Assembly: GCA_022712895.1 (NCBI GenBank)
Contig: JAFLJS010000037.1
Span: 1-64,000 of the forward strand
Origin: Desulfocapsa sp.
GTDB taxonomy: Bacteria; Desulfobacterota; Desulfobulbia; Desulfobulbales; Desulfocapsaceae
Direction of reading: 5' to 3'
Length of the DNA: 64,000 bases
A model generated the notes under the pieces. The model worked only from the letters and a program-made list of their open reading frames with translations, did not search any database and was not told where the DNA came from. This document shows positions 32,122 to 35,290 of the stretch, piece after piece (within the stretch, counting starts at the first letter, position 1; every line of letters starts with the position of its first letter). A program made the position numbers and the translations under genes.

Positions 32122-33906
32122 GTGCCTACTTCTTTAAACGGCTGGACTGGAAAAATTCTTCATATTGATCTTGATAAGGTCTCTATTGATGTTGTCAGAC
32201 CAGCGACCGAAATTTATCATAAATACATAGGTGGCAAGGGGCTTGCGGGTTTTTACCTGAGACCCAAGGTGACACTGCCATGGAATCATCCGCGTATGCC
32301 GCTGCTTATCTTTACAGGACCTCTGGTTGGTACGGCAGCTCCTACTTCCGGTCGTTCAACTATCATGTCACGATCACCACTTACCGGAACAATTGCGGAC
32401 ACCTCCGTGGGGGGGCGTCTTGGTTTTCAACTAAAACGGGCAGGCTGGGATGGCATTATTATCACCGGTCAATCGGAAACGCCATGCGGTATTGAAATAG
32501 AAGATGACAAGGTTCGGATCGTTACTGCCCAAAAACTTTGGGGAAAGGATACGGCAACGATTTTCAGTTCTCTGGCCAATGGGACTCGATCAGTTGCCAC
32601 CATAGGTCCGGCTGCGGAAAATGGAGTCTGTTTTTCAGCCCTTGTGGTTGATAAACATCATGTTGCCGGACGATCAGGTATAGGGCTCTGTTTTGCAGCC
32701 AAAAACCTCAAATATCTGTCCGTGCAGGGCAGCGGCAAAGTCAAGATTCATGATAAGGAAAAACTGCATGCCGCTCGTGAGGAAATTCTCAGGCTCACCG
32801 CAGCATCTCCAATTCTTATGGGACAGCACGGGTTTTCCTGCTTTGGCACAGGATCCATTTATGATCTGATGGATTCACGGCGTATGATGCCAACGGATAA
32901 CTTCCGTAAGACCCATTTTGACCGAGCCTCCGAGCTCAATGCCCATGCTTACAAGAATAAATATGACCCGGGCAAGCATGGCTGCATGGGCTGCCATATC
33001 CGTTGTAAAAAAATTGGTCGCAGCGAGGAGCATGTTGGTGCTTCGATGCCTGAGTTTGAAACCATGTCGCATTTCACTGCGCTCATTAACAATACCGACA
33101 TGGATCTTGTGATGCAGGCCAATGCGCTTTGCAATCACTACGGTATGGATACAATTTCTGCTGCTGCAACCCTGGCCTGTCATAAAGAAATATCCGGCAT
33201 TAAGGATCTTTCCGGCCAGCTTGTGCAACTGCTGGAGGAAATCGGCCAGGGATGCACGGAAATCGGCCGACAGCTCGGCAAGGGATCTTTACATTACGCC
33301 TCAAGTCATAACGAGCAAACTGCATCAATGAGTGTTAAAGGATTGGAACTGCCTGCCTATGATCCAAGGGGAGCATATGGCATGTCTTTGGCCTACGCCC
33401 TTGCCACCCGTGGAGGCTGTCATTTGAGAGCTTATCCGATCAGTCATGAAATCCTGCGAAAACCCGTTGCCACCGACCGTTTTACCTTTAGTGGTAAGGC
33501 GAGAATAATTAAGATCGCAGAGGATCAGAACGCAATTGTTGATTCGCTCACTGCCTGTAAGTTCATTTTTCTAGGAGCCGGACTTGAAGAGTATGCCGGA
33601 GCATTCAGCGCTGTCACCGGAGTAACTGCTACAGCTCAGGATCTACTAAAGGTTGGTGAGCGTATCTATTACCATGAGCGTTTGATGAACAGTCTGAATG
33701 GATTTGAGGCTAAGGATGATGATTTGCCCAGCAGGTTTTTTGATGAAGCAGGAACAAGCGGTAATGGTATAGAGGTCAAAGCCCTCGATCGGGAAGCCTT
33801 TCTTGAGGCTCGCAGTCGTTATTACAGGATTCGCGGTCTTGATGAAAATGGCGGAGCAATACAAGAAAAGGCAGAAGAACTGGGTCTTGCATGGAACAAC
33901 TCGTAA
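32122..33906 (+). CDS. aldehyde:ferredoxin oxidoreductase (tungstopterin type)
   Basis: A 594-residue AOR-family enzyme that oxidises aldehydes to acids with ferredoxin, using tungsten (or molybdenum) bis-pterin and one 4Fe-4S cluster. The N-terminal domain shows YIGGKGLAGFYL and TGPLVGTAAPTSGRSTIMSRSPLTG (pterin binding). The cluster ligands are C288, C291 and C295 in KHGCMGCHIRC plus C479 in SLTACKF, the same numbering as the archaeal prototype for the first three. It starts at a GTG with weak RBS. The last 16 bases overlap the class II aldolase-like gene, so the two are translationally coupled. The substrate aldehyde is unknown; the neighbour suggests a hydroxy- or sugar-derived aldehyde. 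Confidence 0.92.
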   Translation: MPTSLNGWTGKILHIDLDKVSIDVVRPATEIYHKYIGGKGLAGFYLRPKVTLPWNHPRMPLLIFTGPLVGTAAPTSGRSTIMSRSPLTGTIADTSVGGRLGFQLKRAGWDGIIITGQSETPCGIEIEDDKVRIVTAQKLWGKDTATIFSSLANGTRSVATIGPAAENGVCFSALVVDKHHVAGRSGIGLCFAAKNLKYLSVQGSGKVKIHDKEKLHAAREEILRLTAASPILMGQHGFSCFGTGSIYDLMDSRRMMPTDNFRKTHFDRASELNAHAYKNKYDPGKHGCMGCHIRCKKIGRSEEHVGASMPEFETMSHFTALINNTDMDLVMQANALCNHYGMDTISAAATLACHKEISGIKDLSGQLVQLLEEIGQGCTEIGRQLGKGSLHYASSHNEQTASMSVKGLELPAYDPRGAYGMSLAYALATRGGCHLRAYPISHEILRKPVATDRFTFSGKARIIKIAEDQNAIVDSLTACKFIFLGAGLEEYAGAFSAVTGVTATAQDLLKVGERIYYHERLMNSLNGFEAKDDDLPSRFFDEAGTSGNGIEVKALDREAFLEARSRYYRIRGLDENGGAIQEKAEELGLAWNNS

Positions 33907-35060
33907 AGAAATATGTGCGGAAAATAATTGCAGCTGGACTAGCAGAGAATCCTCTGGTCTGCGGTATGGATGATGAGGTGATCTGGAATCGGCCTGATGA
34001 CGATATTCCGGTTTTAGAGCAGGTTCTGGATGGTATGAACATAAACTCTTTAATCTGTGTTGAACCTACCTCCCACTATCTGGCGATTTTTCGGTTTCTG
34101 ACCAGTCGATATCCCGAGACCATAACTCCCGGTGACTGCGAAACACGTACCTTTCTCCATGATGTGCCGGTGATCAGAGACTTTGTATCGGCATCAATCC
34201 TTACCCATCTCCGCAGACGAAAAGCTGTTGTGGTTGATTCAGGTGATTGCATCCGTCTGATTACCTTTGGTGGCGTTAGCCCTGAGCAGGCTTTTGTCAG
34301 TCTCAGCTCCGTCTGTTTCAGTGCCTTTGTCCTTTTCTTTACAGACTATCTGGCCGATTGTAGACAGGGCACCATTACGAAGGAACAGCAGCAGGCTTTT
34401 GATAAGGTGATTGCGCTGCTTGAACCGTCACAGAGGACAACACCAGCATTGGTAACAGGCCCCTTTAGCAGTGAACAGCAAGTCTACCAGGCAATTATTG
34501 AGGCTGGTCGTTTTACGGTGGAGTATGGATTGGTTGATTCCTATTTTGGAAATATATCCTACCGTCTTGATCAAACAATTTATATCAGCCAGACTGGTAG
34601 CTCCCTCGATGAACTAGCCGGTTGTATAGACCCATGTCCCATGGATGAATCATCCTGTGCAGGCATAACTGCCTCCAGTGAACTGGTAGCACATGATGAA
34701 ATTTATAAGAATACAGATAATCGGGCCATCCTCCATGGGCATCCAACGTTTGCAGTGATCTTATCCATGGATTGCAGTGATTTTGACTGTATTAACCGCG
34801 ATCATTGCCATACCAAGTGCACTAAGAAGCGATTTGTGGAGGATGTTCCCATTGTTCCTGGTGAAGTGGGCACTGGTCCCACTGGTCTCTGTCATACCTT
34901 GCCCCCTGCAATTCAAAACAAACGGGGTGTTATTGTGTGGGGGCATGGCCTGTTTACAGTGGCGACTGATGATTTTAATGAGGCCTTCAAGCATCTTCTC
35001 GAAATTGAAAATATGTGCCGAGAGGAATTCTTTGCCAGAGTCAGGTATTTAAAAACATAG
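33891..35060 (+). CDS. class II aldolase-like protein with two cysteine clusters
   Basis: A 389-residue protein. The C-terminal domain (about 195-385) is of the class II aldolase/adducin type: [24 protein letters not shown] at 216-238, the metal pair H282/H284 in [10 protein letters not shown] and H352 in [11 protein letters not shown]. The N-terminal 180 residues form a separate alpha/beta domain ([16 protein letters not shown] near 115) that I do not recognise. Odd: two cysteine-rich inserts, C245/C249/C256 and C295/C300/C306/C310, which could bind zinc or an Fe-S cluster; ordinary class II aldolases lack them. ATG 33891 lies inside the AOR gene. Likely joint action with AOR, cleaving or isomerising a sugar-like substrate to an aldehyde; that is inference. 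Confidence 0.75.
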
Positions 35061-35071
35061 AGGAAGCTGTC

Positions 35072-35290
35072 ATGTCTGTAATTCTATCTACAACCACAGG
35101 GAAATCGGTTGAAATCAGACCAAGTAAGATCATTGCCTTTGTCTCCATGAATTTTACAATGGAGCCTGGAGATATTATTGTAACCGGTACTCCAAGCGGT
35201 GTCGGTCCCCTCAAGCACGGAGACCAGGTTGAGGTGGAGATAGAAAATATTGGTACGTTGGTGAACCCGGTTCAAAGTGAGTCAGCGTAG
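35072..35290 (+). pseudogene. fumarylacetoacetate hydrolase-family gene with its middle deleted
   Basis: A 72-residue ORF that joins the two ends of an FAH-family protein of normally 220-250 residues. The start ([23 protein letters not shown]) is the usual N-terminal hairpin of short FAH enzymes. From residue 23 it jumps to the C-terminal motif [22 protein letters not shown] followed by [14 protein letters not shown]. About 150 residues between them, with all the metal-binding glutamates and the aspartate, are absent, so it cannot be an active hydrolase. The frame is intact and a good RBS (GAGGAAG) precedes ATG 35072, so a small protein may still be made. It lies 12 bases after the class II aldolase-like gene in the same operon. 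Confidence 0.75.

Follow-up and report, generated by a model that had tools for sequence, protein, structure and literature searches.

Enzymes of the AOR/WOR family of aldehyde oxidoreductases fall into 92 clades, only five of which have a known physiological role (PMC13328260). In Class I of that scheme, a lone WorL-type large subunit with 4Fe-4S ligands is encoded without an adjacent Fe-S subunit, and the word aldolase is absent from the survey's main text (PMC13328260). Class II aldolases have been described in several settings. In the L-fuculose-phosphate aldolase FucA (2fk5, 1fua), phosphate is bound by Asn29, Thr43, Gly44, Ser71 and Ser72, and Tyr113 works in the active site of the neighbouring subunit together with Glu73 (PMC11841055). 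Ald2/DrdA (6btd) is a one-domain enzyme encoded in a kinase/isomerase/aldolase cluster, with no AOR partner described (PMC6079011); it belongs to the DHAP shunt, the products of which are DHAP and acetaldehyde or methylthioacetaldehyde (PMC10986504; PMC6079011). In PRK08324, fusion to a short-chain dehydrogenase gives a class II aldolase a redox partner, and PRK08660 (NF006413) comprises single-domain aldolases.

Here, we analyse a gene pair of Desulfocapsa sp. that encodes a tungsten-type aldehyde:ferredoxin oxidoreductase (AOR) and a tandem class II aldolase. Both copies of the aldolase share the FucA fold, and the C-terminal copy has the HxH...H metal ligands and equivalents of Glu73, Asn29, Ser71 and Ser72; in contrast to FucA, the protein is a tandem fusion with a metal-less N-terminal copy, a P-x-D-x-E loop in place of the neighbouring subunit's Tyr113, a four-cysteine (Cys4) loop and an AOR partner. 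Like DrdA, it is a class II aldolase that would yield DHAP and an aldehyde. It shares the P-x-D-x-E motif with PRK08660, most over-cut-off members of which also have an AOR directly upstream, but there a single copy bears both metal site and loop and lacks the Cys4 loop. Whereas PRK08324 is a fusion to a short-chain dehydrogenase, the redox partner here is an AOR and the arrangement an operon. The AOR resembles Class I enzymes as a lone large subunit with 4Fe-4S ligands, but differs from them in its near-constant aldolase neighbour.

An AOR gene that overlaps an aldolase gene

The window, the whole 64,000-nucleotide stretch of DNA that was analysed, is contig C70 of a 3.68 Mb genome. It carries both genes on the forward strand.

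32122..33906, + strand: AOR (tungsten-type aldehyde:ferredoxin oxidoreductase, single large subunit), 594 aa, GTG start; AFOR_N and AFOR_C domains; nearest solved structures 1aor (E 1e-100) and 9g7j
33891..35060, + strand: tandem class II aldolase, 389 aa, ATG start at 33891; from the open reading frame, Pfam and predicted structure
33891..33906, + strand: 16-base overlap of the AOR end (stop at 33906) and the aldolase start; recurs as 4, 13 or 16 bases in relatives

As the initial annotation had noted, the aldolase gene begins inside the AOR gene. Overlaps of 4, 13 or 16 bases recur in nearly all AOR-linked loci opened in the phylum and the pair is conserved across several phyla, so the overlap is not due to chance.

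Pfam domains cover the whole AOR (AFOR_N, E 9e-59; AFOR_C, E 5e-102), and the alignment to 1aor spans its full length. The CxxCxxxC...C cluster ligands and the active-site Glu and His characteristic of the AOR/WOR family are all present, and each is invariant among 13 AORs.

32983..33006, + strand: C288-x2-C291-x3-C295, three of the four presumed [4Fe-4S] ligands
33556..33558, + strand: Cys479, the presumed fourth [4Fe-4S] ligand
33058..33060, + strand: Glu313, aligned to residue 313 of 1aor and equivalent to Glu313 of P. furiosus AOR
33421..33423, + strand: His434, aligned to 1aor and equivalent to His448 of P. furiosus AOR

In the P. furiosus enzyme, Glu313 lies near the tungsten, and His448 is likewise an active-site residue. 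From its family, the AOR is predicted to contain tungsten and to oxidize aldehydes. The flanking open reading frames encode an EamA transporter and a fumarylacetoacetate hydrolase (FAH) fragment, with no WorS or WorN subunit adjacent; the lack of a neighbouring Fe-S or flavin subunit gene fits Class I (PMC13328260). The same genome holds three further AOR-family genes of other clades, on contigs C19 and C44 outside the window. Some AOR matches showed in-frame stops; the one checked proved to be the ordinary termination codon of the gene.

The pair is conserved across anaerobic bacteria

Among 84,980 species genomes, a scan for the aldolase found 13 relatives (48–88% identity), hosted by Desulfocapsa, Pseudodesulfovibrio, Desulfovibrionaceae, Fermentibacteria/Aegiribacteria, a Spirochaetia MAG and a contig binned as Nanohalarchaeota. 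At all 13 loci, which were found by sequence, an AOR gene lies directly upstream on the same strand. The aldolase on the contig binned as Nanohalarchaeota groups with bacterial ones, indicating either transfer or misbinning. A profile search of 395 genomes of the phylum found the tandem aldolase in 36, and an AOR is immediately upstream at 26 of the 30 loci opened. The translationally coupled pair of the initial annotation is supported, with intact catalytic residues on both sides, and the search for it elsewhere that the annotation had called for finds it in several phyla. The AOR–aldolase pair is widespread, occurring in many sulfate-reducing and other anaerobic bacteria.

Three of the four exceptions (genomes G079, G205 and G296) have an AOR of the same clade elsewhere in the genome, and in the AOR tree these unlinked proteins fall inside the pair-linked clade. 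The sister of that clade (support 100/100) is made up of the AORs that accompany single-domain aldolases from family f31. With clade membership set at E <= 1e-160, the aldolase occurs in 36 of the 395 genomes, the AOR clade in 33 and both in 30 (Fisher p ~1e-35, uncorrected for kinship), a result readable only as strong co-occurrence, since the genomes are related and the threshold was chosen after the list had been seen. Four tandem aldolases without this AOR clade, which count against the paired function proposed below, are found in G187, G209, G257 and G378. In G187 (L056, 4861-8341), a divergent tandem aldolase overlaps genes for a MadB-like AAA ATPase and a MadC-like VWA protein, not an AOR. 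Two of the four lie in a row with an LsrF-like aldolase and a Zn-dehydrogenase (L068, 5831-8890; L069, 6831-9891), in genomes of family f80, which lack an AOR of the pair-linked clade. The ADH synthase score of that f80 neighbour aldolase had raised an archaeal-type aromatic pathway (DKFP), which we rejected: the match is LsrF-like, and the Desulfocapsa genome under study lacks DHQS II.

Comparison of neighbourhoods across the family found no conserved third gene beyond the pair, and the neighbouring genes (M23 peptidase, ManC-type enzymes and others) point to no pathway. In several genomes (L057, 6886-7716; L059, 6709-7530; L067, 4197-5726), the gene directly upstream of the tandem aldolase, or of its AOR, encodes an M23 peptidase. 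In the window, a 72-residue open reading frame directly after the pair (35072-35290) corresponds to the C-terminal third of FAH and has an apparent internal deletion that joins an N-terminal start to the C-terminal part; no such fragment adjoins the pair in any relative examined.

A literature search returned no paper joining class II aldolase, aldehyde ferredoxin oxidoreductase and tungsten, and none linking AOR with aldolase and methylthio; its coverage was incomplete, so that both absences carry little weight.

The aldolase consists of two copies of one domain

Pfam recognizes Aldolase_II (PF00596) only at residues 200-377 of the downstream protein (E 5e-24; 85.6 bits against a cut-off of 22.2), in agreement with the class II aldolase domain of the initial annotation. 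The remaining N-terminal part, which that annotation had called unknown, is a second, degenerate copy of the same domain.

34467..35057, + strand: C-terminal catalytic class II aldolase copy, residues 193-389; PF00596; VIA against FucA 1e47, Z 21.6, rmsd 2.2, 173 residues aligned
33891..34370, + strand: N-terminal degenerate class II aldolase copy, residues 1-160, without HxH; hhalign of N against C, VIA against 2fk5_B

The AlphaFold2 model of the full aldolase (14 window/locus sequences) has a pLDDT of 86.5 and a pTM of 0.88, and the N-terminal half modelled alone (42 sequences) reaches a pLDDT of 92.6. The N-terminal half matches the FucA-type aldolase 2fk5_B (Z 17.9, rmsd 1.9 Å, 151 residues aligned) and the C-terminal half also matches the DrdA (5-deoxyribulose-1-phosphate aldolase) structures 6btg and 6btd (Z 20.9 and 20.7), in Foldseek/VIA match lists that are compatible with other families as well. 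Aligned with each other by hhalign, the two halves give a probability of 90 (E 1.5e-6), with a score of 45 against at most 18 in 20 column shuffles. In the tree, all N-terminal copies form one group and all C-terminal copies another, each fully supported, as one duplication would give.

Against the model of the single-domain family PRK08660, the tandem aldolase scores 137 bits (cut-off 203); single-domain relatives exceed this cut-off. Such matches occur in 17 of the 395 genomes, with an AOR directly upstream in 15 clear cases and one fragmentary one (L107); no AOR directly precedes L103 or any of nine matches below the cut-off. The pairing of single-domain aldolases with AORs indicates that the partnership is probably older than the duplication. 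The single-domain set has 27 rows, comprising 26 loci and L071s, which is identical to the L101 gene. All 27 rows have the metal HxH, and all but one have [P/A]-x-D-x-E, the exception having His for Asp. The tandem aldolase would have arisen by duplication of a PRK08660-like single-domain enzyme.

Reciprocal degeneration suggests a composite active site

The two copies have lost complementary parts of the active site, as seen in an alignment of 45 tandem proteins.

34734..34742, + strand: metal ligands H282-G-H284; HxHP in 45/45 C-terminal copies
34944..34946, + strand: third metal ligand, His352; 45/45
34680..34682, + strand: Glu264, equivalent of the FucA catalytic Glu73; 45/45
34128..34169, + strand: loop motif P80-x-D82-x-E84-T-R-T-F-x-H90-D91-x-P93 at the FucA Tyr113 position; PxDxE in 45/45 N-terminal copies

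HxH is found in none of the 45 N-terminal copies, and P-x-D-x-E, the best-conserved part of the N-terminal copy, in none of the 45 C-terminal ones. The C-terminal copy has the three-His metal site and catalytic Glu of a class II aldolase in every protein; Asn221 and Ser262 are as invariant as Glu264 and His352 (45/45), position 263 always holds Ser or Thr (45/45), and position 235 holds Thr or Ser in all but three proteins (42/45). We placed the P-x-D-x-E loop at FucA Tyr113 by alignment to a FucA-like enzyme that bears the 'HYM' signature and by its distance in residues from the metal His, using the FucA numbering of the 'HYM'/Tyr113 stretch.

As the metal is kept in the C-terminal copy and the loop is kept in the N-terminal copy at the place of FucA Tyr113, we infer composite active sites, with metal from one copy and loop from the other. 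The economical reading starts from a homotetrameric ancestor whose loops worked in trans, and which after duplication would have turned into alternating loop-donor and metal-bearing copies. The C-terminal copy would then retain the metal and phosphate site and the N-terminal copy only the loop lent between subunits; the protein would assemble as a pseudo-tetramer of alternating N-terminal and C-terminal copies, and each active site would combine a C-terminal metal site with an N-terminal P-x-D-x-E loop.

A Cys4 loop, present entirely or not at all

The initial annotation had listed seven cysteines in two clusters as possible metal or cluster sites. All seven (C245, C249, C256, C295, C300, C306 and C310) are present, and the clusters fare differently across the 45 proteins.

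34773..34820, + strand: Cys4 loop C295/C300/C306/C310, 16 residues; all four in 37/45
34623..34658, + strand: C245/C249/C256, not a conserved site; 27, 18 and 15 of 45, respectively

The first cluster is too variable to count as a site and fails the test of conservation in close homologues that the initial annotation had set, and we rejected it as part of a metal site; its region is also the lowest-confidence part of the AlphaFold2 model. The second, which begins 11 residues after H282-G-H284, is a genuine conserved site, with four conserved cysteines in one compact loop. Its cysteines are all-or-none: the eight proteins without all four have none, the loop being deleted. These eight all belong to family f46, consistent with a single loss. 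A further cysteine, C376, occurs in 43/45.

The Cys4 loop aligns to the Tyr113 position of the C-terminal copy, that is, to the loop that FucA lends to the neighbouring subunit. At this position it may face the dead N-terminal site and not the live one, and facing a metal-less site in the proposed assembly would fit its dispensability. The freed loop of the C-terminal copy may have become a putative [4Fe-4S] or Zn site, probably with a structural or regulatory role. The class II aldolase fold is not known to carry such a metal site.

The compactness of the four-cysteine loop, together with the tight pairing and co-phylogeny with the AOR and the one relative that adjoins MadB/MadC-like ATPase and VWA genes, could also suggest that the main role of the aldolase-like protein is not catalysis and that it serves the AOR as an accessory subunit, either in maturation or as an electron carrier with a Cys4 Fe-S cluster. 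We regard this as distinctly improbable, however, as the catalytic residues are all kept in 45/45 proteins, the whole of family f46 lacks the Cys4 loop and still keeps the AOR pair, and the single-domain versions have no such loop.

Function and candidate substrates

We consider it probable that the two genes form an aldehyde-handling unit, in which a composite-site, DHAP-type tandem aldolase releases an aldehyde and the AOR oxidizes it. The intact DHAP-type active site and the near-constant AOR neighbour support release and oxidation, and an enzyme pair that produces and oxidizes an aldehyde, as the initial annotation put it, is the best reading of a coupled pair with catalytic residues intact on both sides. 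The tandem aldolase is predicted to catalyse a metal-dependent aldol cleavage, splitting a ketose 1-phosphate into DHAP and an aldehyde; the co-translated tungsten-type AOR would oxidize this aldehyde to the acid, with reduction of ferredoxin. Such an arrangement suggests that the two enzymes act as one unit, in which the aldehyde is removed as soon as it is made.

The reverse direction, in which the AOR reduces an acid to an aldehyde for condensation with DHAP, draws on the reversibility of class II aldolases and on the reduction of non-activated acids by AORs (PMC9295118). It is very unlikely, given the very low potential that acid reduction by an AOR requires and the lack of biosynthetic gene context among the neighbourhoods examined.

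For the cleavage direction, we tentatively name 5-deoxyribulose 1-phosphate or 5-methylthioribulose 1-phosphate as the most likely substrate, which would place the pair on a DHAP-shunt branch with the AOR as aldehyde sink; the aldehydes of the shunt could be oxidized by an AOR. The clustering of Ald2/DrdA with MtnA/MtnK or MtnP is not seen here: MtnA is encoded away from the pair, on C75 of the same genome, and no clear MTAP was found in this genome (best match 80 bits against a cut-off of 275). MtnA is present in 365 of the 395 genomes of the phylum (92%), and we set its presence aside as uninformative about the shunt. In a genome of the same order (G045; L091, 4884-9137), MtnA, a metallohydrolase, a FucA-like aldolase and an NAD(P)-type aldehyde dehydrogenase are encoded in a row, possibly a DHAP shunt with NAD-linked aldehyde oxidation and, by analogy, a parallel to the pair.

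The same pair might instead act on a deoxyhexose-derived or other ketose 1-phosphate, cleaving fuculose- or rhamnulose-1-phosphate to DHAP and lactaldehyde for oxidation by the AOR. The best solved neighbours of the aldolase are FucA enzymes, and pair-less genus-mates carry a RhaD-like aldolase/dehydrogenase fusion as their sole class II aldolase; but the FucA model TIGR01086 gives only 16.8 bits against a cut-off of 400.25, no sugar kinase, isomerase or transporter was recognized among the annotated neighbours, and no neighbour beyond the pair is conserved, which leaves this route unlikely, though not negligible. The fusion of the genus-mates is of the PRK08324 type (L087, 1598-3739; L088, 3030-5132; L089, 156-2273) and offers a further analogy in support of aldehyde release and oxidation by the pair. 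A single class II aldolase, its type varying from genome to genome, was found in 23 of 24 genomes tested.

With the DHAP-shunt substrates, the pair would possibly form an anaerobic branch of 5'-deoxynucleoside salvage. A fuller scheme, in which a [4Fe-4S] Cys4 aldolase docks on the tungsten AOR and hands a toxic aldehyde directly over from its composite site in a ferredoxin-reducing version of that branch, seems to us rather improbable.

Implications

The conserved aldolase partner points to where the aldehyde of an entire AOR clade is likely to come from, in a form open to testing. The aldolase itself offers a clear natural example of a duplicated domain whose copies degenerated reciprocally, which predicts a composite active site shared by a pseudo-enzyme copy and a catalytic one, and its Cys4 loop could add a metal site to this enzyme fold.
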